This document shows, piece by piece, positions 13,536-25,190 of a stretch of 55,688 bases of DNA. The stretch spans positions 281,331 to 337,018 of the forward strand of contig JAIMKR010000002.1 of NCBI GenBank assembly GCA_020692325.1, in the 5' to 3' direction. A model generated the notes under the pieces. It worked only from the letters and a program-made list of their open reading frames with translations, was not told where the DNA came from and did no database searches. The stretch is from Desulfocurvus sp. (GTDB lineage Bacteria; Desulfobacterota; Desulfovibrionia; Desulfovibrionales; Desulfovibrionaceae). Both the position numbers and the translations under genes were made by a program. Numbering within the stretch: the first letter of the stretch is position 1; the number at the start of each line of letters is the position of its first letter.

Positions 13536-14321
13536 TTAGCCCTTGGGGCTGATTTTGTCCGTCTTGCCCAGCAGCGTCAGCTCCAGCCAGTCGAAGCCGA
13601 AGTCGAGGCAGGCCTCCTCGTCGCGCAGGATGGCCGCGCGGCGCTCGTCGGACATGTCCAGGCGTTCCAGCGCGTGGGCGCTCATGAAGAAGCGCTGGAA
13701 GTCGTCGGGCTGGTACAGCGCCAGACCGGCCATGCCGGTCTGCTGCTGCGAGAGCCGGCCGGCTTCGCGCAATGCGGCGGCGAGGCCCATGTAGCGGTCG
13801 TTGAAGGTGTTGTAGACGGTCAGTCCCTGGTCGTCCATCCAACTGGCGGAGCTCCACTCGCTCGCCTCCTCGAAGCCCTTGCAGTGCGGCTCGCGGATGA
13901 CGAAGATCTGCTCCTCGATCTCTCCCGCCGCGCCACCGGCCTTGGGGCGCGTGGCCCGGCCGAGTGGGTACGTGCGGCAGGCCGACGGTCTGTCGGCGTA
14001 GACCGCGCACGCCCCGTGGGTGGAGAAGGGGCAGCGTTTCGCGTCGGTCTCCTGCATGTGCAGGCTCAGAATCGGCAGGCCAACGCCGGGCATGGCGCTC
14101 ATGTCCGCGTATTCGTGGACGAAGGTGCGCGAATTTTGTTTGGTCGCGCGGCGCAGGCGCAGCACGTCGTACGGGGTGAGCATGAGGTTGAGCGCCGAGC
14201 AGCACGCGCCGAAGCAGCGCACCCCCGGGTGGCAGGCGAAGCGGAACTGCTGGCCCGGCCGCAGCTCCTCGTGTTCATCGAGGAAGCGCTGGCTCGAATC
14301 CGTTTTTCCCTGGTCCGTCAT
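13536..14321 (-). CDS. YkgJ family cysteine-cluster protein
   Basis: 262 residues. The family's Cys set is plain: FACHPGVRCFGACCS near residue 30, and CPFSTHGACAVYADRPSACRTYP near 95-115, the pattern of a zinc or Fe-S binding CxxxCxxCC-type cluster (UPF0153). A C-terminal helical extension (about 150-262) lies beyond the core. Family function is unresolved. The ATG at 14321 follows GGAGGGAAGG and overlaps the stop of the preceding glycosyltransferase (ATGA), so translation is coupled. The open frame continues upstream to about 14876, but only as antisense-like sequence. Confidence 0.87.
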   Translation of the reverse strand: MTDQGKTDSSQRFLDEHEELRPGQQFRFACHPGVRCFGACCSALNLMLTPYDVLRLRRATKQNSRTFVHEYADMSAMPGVGLPILSLHMQETDAKRCPFSTHGACAVYADRPSACRTYPLGRATRPKAGGAAGEIEEQIFVIREPHCKGFEEASEWSSASWMDDQGLTVYNTFNDRYMGLAAALREAGRLSQQQTGMAGLALYQPDDFQRFFMSAHALERLDMSDERRAAILRDEEACLDFGFDWLELTLLGKTDKISPKG

Positions 14322-16057
14322 GACCTTCCCTCCGCATGGTCCAGAACGCCGAGGGCGCGGGCCATGGCCTGACCAAGCGTTTCCGCCTGGGCTGCGATGA
14401 AGCCCGCCACTTCCTGGCGGGAGTGCATTGTCTGCATTTTGTACCTGTTGCCATTGGCGCTGGTCTGCGCGGTCCCATTCTGCGCGGCCAGCCCGGAGCG
14501 TTTGCGGTGCCGCACGCGCAGAAAACCCTGGTAGACGGCGTAGCGTCCGCCGGCGAGCATCCGCAGGTCGCGCTCGAAGTCGTCGTATTGCGATGGCGAG
14601 AGCGCCAGCGAGAAGCCGCCGCCCTCGGCGTGGGGCGCGTCCAGCGCCGCGCGCCGAAACATGTGGCAGCAGCCCGTCACGGAGTCCGCCGGGCCGATGA
14701 AGTCGAACAGCCCCCAGTCCGGGCCCTGCATGTGCGCGTCGAGCAGGCGGAAGGGGTTGGGCGCGAGGCTCTGGAAGTCCAGGTCGAGTCGGCCATCCGG
14801 GGCGTCGGCGGGAACGGCCAGCCTGCCGGCGGCGCTTTGCAGTAGGCGCGGGGCCTGGTGATCGGCCACTTTGCAACCGGCCACGCCGGCCTCGGGCATG
14901 GCGGTCAGCGCCGCGCCAAGCCGGCCCAGCCAGTCGGCGGGCAGGTCAACGTCGTCGTCCAGATAGACGAGGGTGCTGGCGGCGCGGGCTTCGGGTGTGG
15001 CGGCCAGCCAGTTGCGCGCGGCCGGTGCGCCGATGTTCACCGGCAGGTCCAGCCGCAGGAGCCCGCCGCGCGCGGCCCACTTGTCGAGCACGCGCGAGGT
15101 GTCGTCCGTGGCCCCGTTGTTCAGAACCATGACCCGCGCGCGACCGCCGTCGCCGAGGGACAGGTCGGAGGCGAACAGGCTCGCCAGCGTGGCGTCCAGG
15201 TCGGCCGCCTTGTTCCAGGTGTACAGCATGACCAGCGCCGGCCCCGGCGGAGGAGCCACGGCCCGGCGCGCGCCGGTGACGGCGTCGGCGGCGGCCAGCG
15301 TCAGCCCAGCCTGCCATGGGGCGTGGCGCAGGGCGGCGAGGATGTCCGGCAGGGCGCGTTCGTCCTCTTCCGCGTCGAGCCAGGCCAGCCCACGGCGCGC
15401 GGGCGCGAAGGCCGGGCCGAAGACCGGACCGCACCCGGCGTCGAGTCGCGTCAGGGCGTCCGCGCAGCGGTCGGCCTCGCCGCGCAGGAAGGCCGACTGG
15501 GCGGTCAGATTGAGGGCGACGGCCAGCGCGCCGGGCAGTTGATCCAGGCCGGACAGGGCCGCCGACTCGAGTTCGTCGGCGATGGCGCCCGGGCCGCAAT
15601 AGATGGACAGGCCGAGGGCCTTGTCACGCCAGTAGAGCCCGGCGGGATCGCGGCGGATTTGCTCGGCCAGGAAGCGCGCCAGCCGTTCGGTGTCGCGTTT
15701 GGCGGCCAGCCGCTCGAAATAAGCCTGACCGCTTTCGCGTTTTCCGGGCGTGCGCCAGTGCGACGCCACGGCGGCCAGCGACGCGTGCGCCGGAGCGGAA
15801 AGGGGCAGGTCCGGCGCGGCCAGAATCTCCGCAGCCAGCGGCCCGGAAAGCGGATTTTCGCCATGAGCCCAGAGCAGGATGTCCGCGGCGAGCGACCGCA
15901 GTTCCGCCGCCTCGTCGCCGTCGGCGTTCGCGGCCAGACGCAGCGCGTCGCCACCCAGGCGCGCCAGCCTCCGCCAACCAGTGGAGGCCCGTTGCATTTC
16001 CAGCCGGGTGGATTCCGGCAGGGCGTTCCAGGCGTCGAGGAATCCTAACGCGGGCAT
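14318..16057 (-). CDS. Family 2 glycosyltransferase with helical N-terminal domain
   Basis: 579 residues. The first 265 residues are all-alpha and Ala/Leu-rich, TPR-like in spacing. The catalytic part begins with GPALVMLYTWNKAADLDATLASLF and has the GT2 features VLNNGATDD and the acidic DDD of LVYLDDDVDLPADW (about residue 365, metal/nucleotide-sugar binding). The Trp/Phe-rich acceptor region and CHMFRRAAL follow. It is predicted cytosolic or peripheral, and builds a surface glycan with its neighbours. It overlaps the downstream YkgJ gene by 4 nt and the upstream deacetylase-GT4 gene by 13 nt. Confidence 0.88.
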   Translation of the reverse strand: MPALGFLDAWNALPESTRLEMQRASTGWRRLARLGGDALRLAANADGDEAAELRSLAADILLWAHGENPLSGPLAAEILAAPDLPLSAPAHASLAAVASHWRTPGKRESGQAYFERLAAKRDTERLARFLAEQIRRDPAGLYWRDKALGLSIYCGPGAIADELESAALSGLDQLPGALAVALNLTAQSAFLRGEADRCADALTRLDAGCGPVFGPAFAPARRGLAWLDAEEDERALPDILAALRHAPWQAGLTLAAADAVTGARRAVAPPPGPALVMLYTWNKAADLDATLASLFASDLSLGDGGRARVMVLNNGATDDTSRVLDKWAARGGLLRLDLPVNIGAPAARNWLAATPEARAASTLVYLDDDVDLPADWLGRLGAALTAMPEAGVAGCKVADHQAPRLLQSAAGRLAVPADAPDGRLDLDFQSLAPNPFRLLDAHMQGPDWGLFDFIGPADSVTGCCHMFRRAALDAPHAEGGGFSLALSPSQYDDFERDLRMLAGGRYAVYQGFLRVRHRKRSGLAAQNGTAQTSANGNRYKMQTMHSRQEVAGFIAAQAETLGQAMARALGVLDHAEGRS

Positions 16058-19963: not shown

Positions 19964-20056
19964 CCCCGCCCCCGTCTTCGCCCTGTCGGCGTGTGACGCC
20001 GGTTCGTCCGCGCGATGCGTGGCGGCGGTTTCGCGCACCCCGCGCCCGTCGGCGCA

Positions 20057-20257
20057 TCAGCTGCCGGCCGGCGTGGATGCGGCGAGGATGGACAGCGGCA
20101 AAGCCGAGGGCCAGCCGGCCCCCTGTCCGGGACGGAATTTCTTGCCGTGCCCCATGCTCAGGAGGCATTCGCGGCAGAGCGTGCCATCCGAGGGCTCGAA
20201 AAATCTGTCCGTACGGTTGATGGGCCGCCCGCAGGCGGCGCAGCAGTGGCGGATCAT
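20057..20257 (-). CDS. Small four-cysteine zinc-finger-like protein
   Basis: 66 residues beginning MIRHCCAACGRPINR. Two CxxC knuckles (CAACG and CRECL, about 25 residues apart) suggest a treble-clef or ribbon zinc site. The C-terminus (SALPLSILAASTPAGS) is hydrophobic and Ser/Ala-rich. The start is well supported: AAGGAGG lies 5 nt before the ATG. A longer upstream frame has no comparable signal. It diverges from selD. Function unknown; possibly a redox or nucleic-acid binding accessory. Confidence 0.6.
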   Translation of the reverse strand: MIRHCCAACGRPINRTDRFFEPSDGTLCRECLLSMGHGKKFRPGQGAGWPSALPLSILAASTPAGS

Positions 20258-20416
20258 GCGGCCTCCTTGTCTTGGCTGGTGACGGGTGTGACAATGCATT
20301 TCCCGTACCTCATGCCTTATCGGCGGATTTCGGCCGCGCGTTACGGCGGCGTTCATCTATGGCGCATATCGGATATTTCTCTTGGCGCGTCCCTTGCGCT
20401 TTGGTACTCCGGGGGC

Positions 20417-21496
20417 ATGAAGCAGTGCGACGCATCCTCCGCCGCCCCCACGAACGTCCGGCTCACGCAGGGCGTCCGCGCCGCGGGCTGAGCGGCCAAA
20501 GTGGCTCCAGGGGACCTGGAGCGGATTCTCGCCGGCCTTTCCCTGGGCCAGGACGACCGTATTCTCTCGGGACCGCGCGGCGGTGGCGAGGACGCGGTGG
20601 TGCTGTCGTTCCCGCCGGGCAGGGCGCTGGTGCAGACCGTGGATTTTTTGACGCCCGTGGTGGATGATCCCTTCCGTTTTGGACAGATCGCCGCGGCCAA
20701 CGCGCTTTCCGACGTTTACGCCGTGGGGGGCGAACCCTACGCTGCCATGAACGTATGCTGTTTCCCCGCCAGGACCATGGCGGCGGAGGTGCTGGCCGAG
20801 ATATTGCGCGGCGGGTTGTCCAAGGTGACGGAAGCCGGCGCGACGCTGTGCGGCGGCCACAGCGTGGAGGATGCGGAACTCAAGTACGGGTTGTCCGTGT
20901 CCGGCGTGGTGGATCCGAAACGCATGGCTGGCAACAGGGGGCTGCGCGCTGGCGACATTCTGCTGCTGACCAAGCCGGTGGGCACGGGCGTGCTGGCCAC
21001 TGCGGTCAAGGCCGGCCTGGACGGCGCGGCGGACCTGGAGCTGTTGCTGCATCGTTGGTGCGCAAAGTTGAACAACGCCGGGGCCCGCGTCATCCACGAC
21101 CTTGGGCTTTCGGCCGCCACGGACGTCACCGGCTTCGGGCTGGGCGGGCACCTGCTGGAAATGGCCGCGGCCAGCGGCGTCACCGCCGAACTCGATCTCG
21201 CCTCCGTGCCGTTCCTGCGGGAGGCGCTGGACATGGCGGCCCTCGGTCTCATTCCGGCCGGCAGCATCCAGAACCGCATGCACTATCTGCCGCGCGCGTC
21301 CGTGCGGCCAGAATTGGACGAGCTGCTCGTGACCATGGCCTTCGACGCCCAGACCTCGGGCGGGCTCATCCTCGGCGTGCCCGAGGACGATGTGGAGGCG
21401 GCCCGAAGCATTCTGACCGACGCCGGGGATTTGGCCGCCATCATCGGCCGCGCCGTGGAGCGCGTTCCCGACGGGCCGGCGCTCATCATCGCGTGA
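20417..21496 (+). CDS. selD: Selenide, water dikinase (selenophosphate synthetase) with selenocysteine at the UGA codon
   Basis: 359 residues when the in-frame TGA at 20489-20491 is read as Sec25. It makes selenophosphate from selenide and ATP for Sec and selenouridine. The active site reads RAAGUAAKVAP: Sec25 and Lys28 align with the Cys/Lys pair of other SelD proteins. Downstream are the family motifs TVDFLTPVVDDPFRFGQIAAANALSDVYAVGG, TLCGGHSVED and DVTGFGLGGH. Starting after the TGA (GTG at 20501) would remove the catalytic residue. A hairpin right after the UGA can act as SECIS. Start ATG 20417 follows GGGGG. Convergent with the rrf2 gene. Confidence 0.93.
20504..20522 (+). promoter_or_regulatory. 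Putative bacterial SECIS hairpin in selD
   Basis: An 8-bp perfect stem, GCTCCAGG (20504-20511) and CCTGGAGC (20515-20522), with a GGA apical loop, starts 12 nt after the UGA codon. Bacterial SECIS elements lie immediately 3' of the UGA, and SelB reads G residues in the apical loop, so position and loop fit. Confidence 0.7.
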
Positions 21497-21521
21497 GGCC
21501 GGCCGTGGGCGGGCGGAGGGA

Positions 21522-22028
21522 TCAGGCCGCCGGCGGGTGCTTGGCCAAGGCCAAGGGCCGGATGTCCGGCAGGTCCAGGGGCCGGCCCGCATGGGTCGCC
21601 GCCAGCCGGCGCTCCCGCGCCACCAGCTCGGCGAGGCTGATGGAGTCGTAGACGCGCTCCAACGCCAGCCTCGCCTCGTCCCATAGGCTTTCGAACACGC
21701 AGCCGCCCTTGAGCGGGCAGGGGCGCTCGCCGCCATGCCGGCAGTCCACGGGGGCCATGGTCCCATTGTAGAAACGCACGATCTCGCCCACGTGGATGAC
21801 CCCGCTTGACCGGGCCAGGCAGAAGCCCCCGGCCTTGCCCCGGCGCGACTCCACGAAGCCGGCCTGCCGCAGCTCCAGCAGGATGCCGTCGAGAAAACGC
21901 TTGGGAATGGCCTGAATTCGGGCGATCACCGCCGAGGGCAGCACCGGGTCCTCGGGGTTCGTTTCGGCCTTGCGGGCCAGTTCGAACAGGGCGCGCAGGG
22001 CGTATTGGCAGCGCTGCGTCAGATTCAT
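21522..22028 (-). CDS. Rrf2 family transcriptional regulator
   Basis: 168 residues. A winged-helix N-terminus (MNLTQRCQYALRALFELA and FLDGILLELRQAGFVESRRGKAGGF) is followed by the dimerisation helix and three Cys in CRHGGERPCPLKGGC, the spacing used by Rrf2 proteins to hold an Fe-S cluster. Members sense Fe-S status, redox or cysteine precursors (IscR, NsrR, CymR). Its start overlaps the metXW stop (ATGA), so it is the last gene of metY-metXW-rrf2 and probably controls this operon. The ATG follows GGAGG by 6 nt. Confidence 0.9.
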   Translation of the reverse strand: MNLTQRCQYALRALFELARKAETNPEDPVLPSAVIARIQAIPKRFLDGILLELRQAGFVESRRGKAGGFCLARSSGVIHVGEIVRFYNGTMAPVDCRHGGERPCPLKGGCVFESLWDEARLALERVYDSISLAELVARERRLAATHAGRPLDLPDIRPLALAKHPPAA

Positions 22029-23878
22029 GGATGTCCTCCCTCCGATGTGAAGTCCGTCGCGCGCTTGAGGACGCACACGGCCATGTCCGCGCGGGTGTTG
22101 TAGTCCTCGCCCGCGAGTTCTCCCGTGGCCGAGTCGATGGCGACGCGTTGCACCACGTCGATCGAAAGCTCGTGGCAAAGGTTTTCGAAATCCTTGATGC
22201 TGAAAAAACGGATGGACGGCGAGGACCACCAGGGGAAGGGCAGCCCCTCGGTGACGGGCGAGGTGCCCCGCTCCAGCAGTTGGCGCACGGCCGCGTGATG
22301 GGCGAAGTTGGGGAAGCTCACCAGCCCGGTGCGGCCCACGCGCAGCATCTCGCGCAGGGCAGCGTCCGGCCGGCGCATGGCCTGGAGCGTCTGGCTCAAC
22401 ACCACCACGTCGAACTGGCCGTCGGCGAAGACGCCCAGACCCCGGTCCAGGTCGCGCTGGACCACGCGCAACCCTTGCCCCACGCAGTCCACGATGGCCT
22501 TGGCGCTGAGTTCGAGACCCAGCAGGTTCCCGCTGCCGCGCCGGCGCAGAAGCGAAAGCAGCTGCCCCGAGCCGCAGCCGAGGTCCAGCACGCTGGATCC
22601 GGGCTCGATGAGTTCGGCCAGGCGTTGCAGGTCCAGACGGTTGTGGAAGAAGATGCTGCGCACGTTGTTCTCGGCCGGGAGGACGCCGTCGGCGTCCGGC
22701 GACGCGGCCCCGGTAGCCTCGGGCTCGGGCGCGGCCTGTTCCAGAAAGCCTTTAACGAGCGGGCCGTACACGGGCAGGTCGTTTTCCAGCAGAAAGGCGT
22801 CGTGCCCGCAGTCGCTTTCCACCACCAGGGAGCTGACATCCTTGCCAGCGGCCATGAGGGTGTCGACGATGCGCCGGCTGTGCGTTGGCGGGAACAGCCA
22901 GTCCGTGCTGAAGCTCGCCACCAGGGTCCGCGCCGTGATGCGCGACAGCGCTGCTGTCAGGCTTCCGTAGTCGCGCGCGAGGTTGAACTGATCCATGGCC
23001 AGCGAGAGCGCCACGTAGCTGTTGGCGTCGAAGCGCTCCACGAAGCGTCCGCCCTGGTAGGCCAGATACGAGCCCACGCTGAATTCCTTCTCGTAGGCGT
23101 AGGCCACGTCGCGCGGGTGTTCGCGGTCGGGGTCGAACTTGCGCGACATGGTGCGGTCGGAGAGGTACGTCACGTGGCCGATCATGCGGGCGATGGCCAG
23201 GCCGTCGTCGGGTTTTTTCTCGCGGTCGTAGTATTGACCGTTGTTGTAGTTGGGGTCCTTGAAAATGGCGTTGCGGCCCACGATGTCGAAGGACAGGGCC
23301 TGGCTGGACAGGCAGTGCGTGGTGGCCAGCAGCACGGCCGAGTCCACTCGCTCCGGGTGGCGCACCGCCCAGGTCAGGGCCATCATGCCGCCCATGGAGC
23401 CGCCGATGACCGCCCGTAGTTTTTCGATGCCGAGCTGGTCGAGCAGGCGCTTTTGCACCTCCACCATGTCGGCTATGGTGATGCGCGGGAAGTCGCCGCC
23501 ATAGGACCGGCCCGTGCGTGGGTCGATGCTCGCCGGGCCGGTGGTGCCTCGGCAGCCGCCCAGCACGTTGGCGCAAATGACGAAGTGGCTGTTCGTGTCC
23601 ACGCTCTCGCCCGGTCCCACGAGGATGTCCCACCACCCCGGCGCGTCGTCCGCGTCGTGCCGGGCCACGTGCGAGTCGCCCGTGAGGGCGTGGCAGACGT
23701 AGATCGCGTTGTCGCGCGCGGCGTTCAGCTCGCCGTAGGTCTCGTAGCGCACGCTGACCTCGGGCAGTTCGCCGCCCAGGGTCAGCGGCAATGGTCCGGG
23801 CAGCGATAGCGTCCTGGCGTACGGCAGGTCGCCGTCGGCGCGCGCGGCGTCGCTGGAGTCGAAGGCGTCGTCGGTCAC
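22025..23878 (-). CDS. metX: Homoserine O-acetyltransferase MetX fused to MetW methyltransferase-like domain
   Basis: 617 residues. About 1-385 is MetX, an alpha/beta hydrolase that acetylates homoserine: nucleophile Ser161 in GGSMGGM, the acid in FSTDWLFPP, and the His in DCGHDAFL. About 415-610 is MetW, a small SAM-type Rossmann domain (VLDLGCGSGQLLSLL, LSQTLQAM, VSFPNF). In many proteobacteria metX and metW are adjacent and MetW is needed for MetX activity; here they are one chain joined by an Ala/Pro/Glu linker. It lies 4 nt after metY, and its stop overlaps the rrf2 start. Confidence 0.94.
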   Translation of the reverse strand: MTDDAFDSSDAARADGDLPYARTLSLPGPLPLTLGGELPEVSVRYETYGELNAARDNAIYVCHALTGDSHVARHDADDAPGWWDILVGPGESVDTNSHFVICANVLGGCRGTTGPASIDPRTGRSYGGDFPRITIADMVEVQKRLLDQLGIEKLRAVIGGSMGGMMALTWAVRHPERVDSAVLLATTHCLSSQALSFDIVGRNAIFKDPNYNNGQYYDREKKPDDGLAIARMIGHVTYLSDRTMSRKFDPDREHPRDVAYAYEKEFSVGSYLAYQGGRFVERFDANSYVALSLAMDQFNLARDYGSLTAALSRITARTLVASFSTDWLFPPTHSRRIVDTLMAAGKDVSSLVVESDCGHDAFLLENDLPVYGPLVKGFLEQAAPEPEATGAASPDADGVLPAENNVRSIFFHNRLDLQRLAELIEPGSSVLDLGCGSGQLLSLLRRRGSGNLLGLELSAKAIVDCVGQGLRVVQRDLDRGLGVFADGQFDVVVLSQTLQAMRRPDAALREMLRVGRTGLVSFPNFAHHAAVRQLLERGTSPVTEGLPFPWWSSPSIRFFSIKDFENLCHELSIDVVQRVAIDSATGELAGEDYNTRADMAVCVLKRATDFTSEGGHP

Positions 23879-23882
23879 GCCA

Positions 23883-25190
23883 TCACCCCTTGGCGGAAGC
23901 CTTGCCCAGGGCCTGATCCAGGTCGGCCAGGATGTCCTCCACGTCCTCCAGCCCCACGCTCATGCGGATGAATTCCGGCGTGACGCCGGCGGCCAGCTGC
24001 TCCTCGTCGGAAAGCTGCTGGTGCGTGGTGGTGGCGGGCTGGATGACGAGGGTCTTGGCGTCGCCGATGTTGGCCAGGTGCTTGGCCAGGCGCACGTTGT
24101 CGATGAACACGCGGCCCGCCTCGCGTCCGCCCTTGAGGCCGAAGCCCATGATGGCCCCCGCGCCTCCGGGCAGGTACTTGACGGCGTTGGCGTGGTCGGG
24201 GTGGTCCGGCAGACCGGGGTAGTTCACCCAGGCCACGGCCGGATGCGCGGCCAGCCAGCGGGCCACGGTCAGCGCGCTTTCGCAGTGCCGGGGCATCCGC
24301 AGATGCAGCGTCTCCAGCCCGATCAGAAAGAGGAACGCGGCGAAGGGGCTCATGCAGGCCCCGGCGTCGCGCAGCTGGTGGGTGCGCATGTGCACGATGT
24401 AGGCGAGGTTGCCCTGCTCCTTCAGCGCCTCGGTGAGCACGAGGCCGTGGTACGCCGGGTCGGGTTTGGCGAAGTCCGGCCAGCGGTCGGGGTCGGCGTC
24501 CCACTTGAAGGTGCCCAGGTCCACCACAGCGCCGCCCACGTGGGTTCCGTGTCCGCCGATGAACTTGGTGGTGGAGTAGACCACGATGTCCGCGCCGTGC
24601 TCGATGGGCCGCAGGAGCATGGGTGTGGTCACGGTGTTGTCGATGACCAGCGGCACGCCGATCTTGTGGGCGATCTTGGCGATGGCCTCGAAGTCCGGCA
24701 CATCGTTTTTGGGGTTGCCCACGCTCTCGATGTAGATGCAGCGGGTGTTCGCATCGGCCAGCGCGGCGATGGTCTCCGGCTTGCGGGGATCGAAGACGCG
24801 CGCCTCGATGCCGTATTTTTTGAACGTCTGCGTGAACAGGGTGAGGGTGCCGCCGTACAGGCTGCCGGAGGTGAGGAAATTCTGGCCGCACTTGGTCAGC
24901 GTGAGCACCGCGGCGCTGATGGCCGCCATGCCACTGGCGAAGCACAGCGCTCCCACGCCGCCATCCAGCGCGGCGAGCCGCTTCTCCAGCACGTCCACCG
25001 TGGGGTTGGTGAGGCGCGAGTAAATGTTTCCGGCCTGCTTCAGCGAAAAGAGATCGGCCGCGTGCTCGGTGCTGGTGAAATTGTAGGACGCCGTGGCGTA
25101 GATCGGCACCGCGCAGGCGTGGGTGGTGGGGTCGTCGCCTTGCCCGGCATGCAGGGCAAGCGTTCCCAGGCCAGTTTTTCTTTCCTTCAT
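23883..25190 (-). CDS. metY: O-acetylhomoserine sulfhydrylase (PLP enzyme)
   Basis: 435 residues of the Cys/Met-metabolism PLP family. The PLP lysine is Lys209 in VVYSTTKFIGGHG; other marks are YSRLTNPTVDVLEKRLAALDGG near the start and the C-terminal TTTHQQLSDEEQLAAGV. It makes homocysteine directly from O-acetylhomoserine and sulfide, which suits a sulfide-producing cell. It is the first gene of metY-metXW-rrf2, supplied with substrate by the next gene. AAGGAG precedes the ATG. Family alternatives (cystathionine gamma-lyase or synthase) are less likely given the metX context and length. Confidence 0.94.
   Translation of the reverse strand: MKERKTGLGTLALHAGQGDDPTTHACAVPIYATASYNFTSTEHAADLFSLKQAGNIYSRLTNPTVDVLEKRLAALDGGVGALCFASGMAAISAAVLTLTKCGQNFLTSGSLYGGTLTLFTQTFKKYGIEARVFDPRKPETIAALADANTRCIYIESVGNPKNDVPDFEAIAKIAHKIGVPLVIDNTVTTPMLLRPIEHGADIVVYSTTKFIGGHGTHVGGAVVDLGTFKWDADPDRWPDFAKPDPAYHGLVLTEALKEQGNLAYIVHMRTHQLRDAGACMSPFAAFLFLIGLETLHLRMPRHCESALTVARWLAAHPAVAWVNYPGLPDHPDHANAVKYLPGGAGAIMGFGLKGGREAGRVFIDNVRLAKHLANIGDAKTLVIQPATTTHQQLSDEEQLAAGVTPEFIRMSVGLEDVEDILADLDQALGKASAKG

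Follow-up and report, generated by a model that had tools for sequence, protein, structure and literature searches.

A Desulfocurvus selD gene with an in-frame UGA at its active-site codon and a covarying hairpin behind it, predicted to encode a selenoprotein form of selenophosphate synthetase

The selD gene in the window (the whole stretch of Desulfocurvus sp. DNA analyzed here, 55,688 nucleotides) very probably encodes selenophosphate synthetase as a selenoprotein, with selenocysteine (Sec) at codon 25. The gene and its family, a UGA at the Cys position, a covarying hairpin, the selA, selB and selC genes and a second selenoprotein gene were all identified from sequence. The features within the gene are as follows.

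20417..21496, + strand: selD, selenide, water dikinase; 359 aa with the UGA at codon 25 read as Sec
20489..20491, + strand: in-frame UGA (TGA), predicted Sec25 and active-site selenol; pairs with the Cys of solved SelDs
20498..20500, + strand: codon of Lys28, three residues after Sec, from the sequence; columns A10 and A11 are invariant in 52 aligned rows
20501..21496, + strand: truncated table 11 ORF with a GTG start and without the active site
20504..20522, + strand: predicted bacterial SECIS hairpin; stem 20504-20511/20515-20522, loop GGA 20512-20514

Translation from the ATG at 20417 to the stop codon at 21494-21496, with the TGA read through, yields 359 residues (20417-21493 translated), and the ATG column is kept in 14 of 14 genus rows. 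The protein scores 321.4 bits against the SelD model TIGR00476 (cut-off 125) and carries the Pfam domains AIRS and AIRS_C, placing it in the SelD family with the predicted function of making selenophosphate. Its SelD relatives in the PDB, 2yye (7.4e-60) and 3u0o (3.5e-59), align straight across the UGA, and codon 25 pairs with Cys in both, in agreement with the proposal of the first-pass annotation that Sec stands here where other species have Cys. The alignment to SelD families suggested there also spans the UGA with Aquifex aeolicus SelD (RSSGCAAKVGPGDL); the flanks that had been read around it, LTQGVRAAG-U-AAKVAPGD, and the position of the UGA itself were correct, and the expected Lys lies three residues after U, at codon 28. 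U25, aligned with the Cys of 2yye, and K28 make up the arrangement of the SelD active site (Sec or Cys, then Lys three residues on), and we take the role of Lys28 to be catalytic. Sec is the residue predicted for position 25, since the UGA is both aligned with the Cys of homologues and conserved in relatives. Under translation table 11 the ORF runs from the GTG at 20501 and has 331 aa; as had been anticipated, naive gene calling starts there, and an annotation made without UGA recoding would give selD this start and lose the active site.

Conservation of the codon was assessed in several sets of relatives. The family sample comprised 59 genomes; a SelD over the TIGR00476 cut-off was found in 51, and TGA occupied the codon in 50 of these 51 SelDs (49 with one TGA inside the profile match, plus G017, whose match began after the site, so that its TGA was not counted within the match and was found separately). 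In the genus, SelD was present in 14 of 15 genomes, with TGA in all 14; the genome without SelD is 86% complete. A further set of relatives (genome_contigs) comprised 31 loci, 30 of which cover the codon, 26 with TGA and four with TGC. Among the 81 rows that reach across this codon, TGA occurs 76 times and TGC five times. The nearest named relative (78% identity) is a Humidesulfovibrio MAG (L063), which NCBI ranks place in Desulfovibrionaceae; the genus of the window includes this MAG, because a locus from one of the genus genomes (L115, G067) lies whole within L063.

The 8-bp hairpin with a GGA loop that the first-pass annotation had described as starting 12 nt after the UGA is present in both the sequence and the fold (GCUCCAGG-GGA-CCUGGAGC), and the distance from the UGA to the loop is 20 nt. 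Relative to dinucleotide shuffles, the fold has a z of -2.19 for 47 nt and -0.99 for 81 nt; the single-sequence fold is thus not strong evidence, because over 81 nt it is hardly better than average. In the recommended check against a SECIS model, the hairpin folds, but no Rfam SECIS family matches at the site. At gathering scores, Rfam recovered RNase P and two tRNAs in the whole window and no SECIS, and at a permissive threshold the segment 20440-20600 yielded a pair of hits near 13 bits, both to families other than SECIS. In its loop of 3 nt with G first, its 8-bp stem, its 20-nt spacing and its energy of -22.1 kcal/mol, the hairpin resembles bacterial SECIS elements as PMC13188914 presents them, from which it differs in lacking an Rfam SECIS match. 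It also lies within the limits for loop, stem, spacing and energy given there, a test that is unspecific as coded in our analysis. These limits were passed by 51/52 family Sec rows, 23/24 other Sec rows and 5/5 Cys rows, and also by 997 of 3383 control codons. Since control codons and Cys rows pass too, the coded limits do not discriminate, and we dropped them as evidence.

The family alignment is more informative than the single fold. It comprises 52 Sec rows, 51 of them distinct (the window, 49 family loci, L063 and L064), in which 94.1% of the cells of the 8-pair stem are paired, as against 87.0% after shuffling (reached by 0/500 shuffles). Double changes are found in 27 cells versus 10.5 in shuffles and affect four of the eight stem pairs versus 2.1 in shuffles (4/500), and sliding the stem along the family rows gives a pairing of at most 54.9%. 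Because the stem sits in coding sequence, we also used a control in which 11 codons were replaced by synonyms according to the codon usage of the gene concerned. By this measure the mean z is -2.41 in the 52 family Sec rows, with 39 at p<=0.05; the window hairpin itself has a z of -1.98 (p 0.028) and a near relative, L048, a p of 0.068. For the 24 non-family Sec rows the mean z is -1.68 (13/24 at p<=0.05), for the five Cys rows -0.25 (1/5, L034), and the corresponding means for other windows of the same genes are -0.33 and -0.15, with -0.23 for the family. Outside the family 72.4% of stem cells are paired (1/500 shuffles reach this), two of five covariation measures lie within the shuffles (90 and 78 of 500), and RNAalifold returned no consensus structure for the 24 rows. 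Pairing maintained by selection is therefore evident in the family rows and weaker outside the family. Codon choice follows the same lines: all 39 family rows with Gly at U+7 encode it by GGG, which makes up 24% of Gly codons elsewhere, and among the other rows with Gly at this position GGG is used in 11/16 Sec rows and 0/4 Cys rows. The loop opens with G in 52/52 family Sec rows, 19/24 other Sec rows and 0/5 Cys rows. The term "SECIS-like" used in the first-pass annotation is consequently justified mainly by covariation and synonymous-codon choice across relatives, and less by the single fold.

These comparisons bear on the possibility that the hairpin is a by-product of GC-rich codons for the peptide APGDLE and that Sec insertion relies on some other signal. 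The peptide is indeed conserved, control codons and all Cys rows pass the coded SECIS limits, and the stem persists in L034, a Cys row; set against this are the weaker folds obtained by synonymous recoding, the compensatory pairs in the stem and the uniform use of GGG for the family Gly, and we consider a by-product very unlikely.

The first-pass annotation had also predicted that selA, selB and tRNA-Sec would exist in this genome, and all three are present in the source assembly (G000, 3.05 Mb, estimated 100% complete), which thus has the three components of the Sec-decoding trait. A profile search identified selA at 592 bits and selB at 376 bits, the latter with the winged-helix domains that bind SECIS in known SelBs; the two genes lie near each other, on either side of an ORF for an M18 aminopeptidase. 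The tRNA-Sec scores 83.1 bits versus a model cut-off of 47, and ARAGORN assigns it the anticodon tca; the model also matches in 14/14 control genomes, and ordinary tRNAs match it weakly, as does a second match in G000 at 47.3 bits that ARAGORN calls tRNA-Trp. No second SelD over the cut-off was found in G000, where the two other matches score 53 and 37 bits. Thus neither of the findings named at the outset as counting against a selenoprotein SelD, an absence of Sec machinery or a separate full-length Cys-SelD, applies to this genome. In addition, G000 has a second selenoprotein gene (L095, C8:31665-36299), which encodes a molybdopterin enzyme with an in-frame TGA in the motif QARV-U-HSPTVPALA; the motif, read with the Pfam match, is presumably that of the formate dehydrogenase FdhA, and the MFE fold places a GGC loop 23 nt after this UGA. 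A search for ybbB/selU (TIGR03167), the marker of the SeU trait, gave no match in G000 and none over the cut-off in ten other family genomes (0/10, with two very short weak matches). Since no ybbB was found, the use of selenophosphate that can be seen in G000 is Sec.

The machinery and the distribution of the codon also weigh on whether the UGA might be read as another residue (near-cognate Trp, or Cys), with the hairpin only aiding readthrough. Readthrough and Sec insertion look alike in sequence alone, but selA, selB and tRNA-Sec in the same genome, the predominance of TGA with only TGC as its replacement at the site (76 and five of 81 rows) and the different first loop base and Gly codon choice of TGA and TGC rows (the latter numbering only five) all argue for Sec, and we give this alternative little credence. 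That the TGA is a real stop, arising from a pseudogene or a sequencing error and leaving selD dead or truncated, is scarcely credible: the table 11 ORF does begin just past it, at 20501, but the same TGA recurs in the family (50/51) and genus (14/14) SelDs, no other SelD over the cut-off accompanies selA and selB, and the frame continues to 21493 with a family score over the cut-off.

Sec insertion, SelB binding and the catalytic role of Sec25 are proposed here by analogy with the known pathway. SelB carrying Sec-tRNA-Sec would bind the hairpin just after the UGA, and the ribosome would insert selenocysteine at position 25. Sec25 and Lys28, in the N-terminal loop, would then act in the conversion of selenide and ATP to selenophosphate, which SelA would use to charge tRNA-Sec. 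Because SelA needs selenophosphate for this charging, SelD would depend on its own product. The gene would be one more example of a selenium pathway that depends on itself, because SelD, which provides the selenium that goes into Sec, requires Sec of its own.

The closest structural counterpart is A. aeolicus SelD (2yye/2zod), whose loop reads GCAAKVGPGDL where the window has GUAAKVAPGDL (alignment residues 14-328). Cys stands in the deposited sequence where the window has UGA; this is presumably an engineered version of an enzyme that natively carries Sec. In Zhang et al. 2006 (PMC1794560), SelD appears in the selenoprotein listings for Desulfovibrio vulgaris and other Deltaproteobacteria. 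The Sec-SelD (SPS2) of these bacteria shares with the window gene its family, Sec in SelD, its bacterial group and an accompanying Sec-FdhA; as far as tested, the two differ only in species. Mariotti et al. 2015 (PMC4561486) found that 19% of the SelDs they detected across 223 reference genomes contain Sec, whose position never varies, and the self-dependent Sec pathway is already described there across bacteria and eukaryotes. Sec-SelD is therefore already known both for this enzyme and for this bacterial group, and the window gene is a well supported, ordinary example.

Among the 51 family SelDs over the cut-off, the sole TGC belongs to G008 (L034), a 95% complete genome in which selA was not found. 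L034 nevertheless keeps the stem, with a synonymous-recoding p of 0.014, and has the loop CGT in place of GGN. In a quick protein tree of the 81 rows, L034 (Cys) sits beside L014 (Sec) with an SH-aLRT of 81, a grouping that is not starred; a change from Sec to Cys at L034 is thus likely but not firm, and its stem is possibly a relic SECIS left after such a replacement. Elsewhere in the family, selA was found in 45 of the 50 genomes with TGA-SelD, and the remaining five are 54-84% complete. Two genomes of one genus (G012 and G053, loci L059 and L060) have TGA-SelD, and no selA was found in their assemblies, which are 83% and 79% complete. The eight family genomes without a SelD over the cut-off divide into four with selA (G010, G014, G030 and G047) and four without; G014 retains an 84-bit C-terminal SelD piece. 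G047 is a 99% complete genome with selA at 616 bits and no SelD over the cut-off (L135, contig C1, 1457619 bases), and tRNA-Sec was not found in the 12 kb examined around its selA.

A conserved element precedes the selD start codon.

20382..20410, + strand: promoter-like TTGGCG-N17-TACTCC with TG before the second hexamer, ending 6 nt before the ATG; conserved columns

The 14 genus rows, window included, share TTGGC at 20382-20386 and T-n-TG-n-TA at 20400-20406. Columns 20382, 20385, 20386, 20400, 20402, 20403, 20405 and 20406 are invariant in 14/14 rows and columns 20383 and 20384 are conserved in 13/14; the TTGGC part of the L108 row is two bases shorter. Ten mostly variable bases lie between T-n-TG-n-TA and the ATG. 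In the usual promoter geometry, a -35 hexamer and an extended -10 with a 17-nt spacer would place +1 on or beside the A of the ATG. A simple match detected no Shine-Dalgarno word before the ATG of the window or of L048, whereas many other family members have one. The element may be a promoter giving a leaderless selD mRNA that starts at the A of the ATG throughout the genus, a reading for and against which we hold the case evenly balanced. The hexamer TACTCC is poor as a promoter -10, a strict sigma-70 scan of 20000-21700 found no promoter, and a conserved operator would look like this element. A looser pattern, written after selD had been seen, matches twice in the genome (selD and one other) and not at all in the reversed control. 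A stricter promoter pattern had 0 matches genome-wide, as it demanded a T that is absent from the second hexamer of selD. We also considered, by eye, whether TTGGC..TTGC just upstream could be a sigma-54 promoter, and rejected this since relatives do not share the TTGC half. If the mRNA is leaderless, the SECIS hairpin would lie within the first 110 nt of the transcript, and selenoprotein expression throughout the genus would proceed without room for a leader riboswitch or Shine-Dalgarno control. Among the matches listed in literature searches on leaderless mRNA with selenoprotein or selenocysteine and on Desulfovibrio transcription start sites, titles and abstract openings contained no such report, and a plasmid blastn search with 20382-20560 gave no match.

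Several observations concern the remainder of the window and genome. The ORF at 14318-16057 (- strand, 579 aa) had no NCBIfam match at E 0.001, searched against the NCBIfam library only. Two loci of G000, L098 and L100, each lie at a contig end (C16 and C15). One covers profile positions 1-404 of the NiFe hydrogenase large subunit and the other 419-508; an assembly gap may have split this gene. Finally, the ORF at 22025-23878 (- strand, 617 aa) matches both MetX (residues 22-384) and MetW (414-604) over their cut-offs and is a MetX-MetW fusion, and it is adjoined by an O-acetylhomoserine sulfhydrylase gene at 23883-25190 (- strand).
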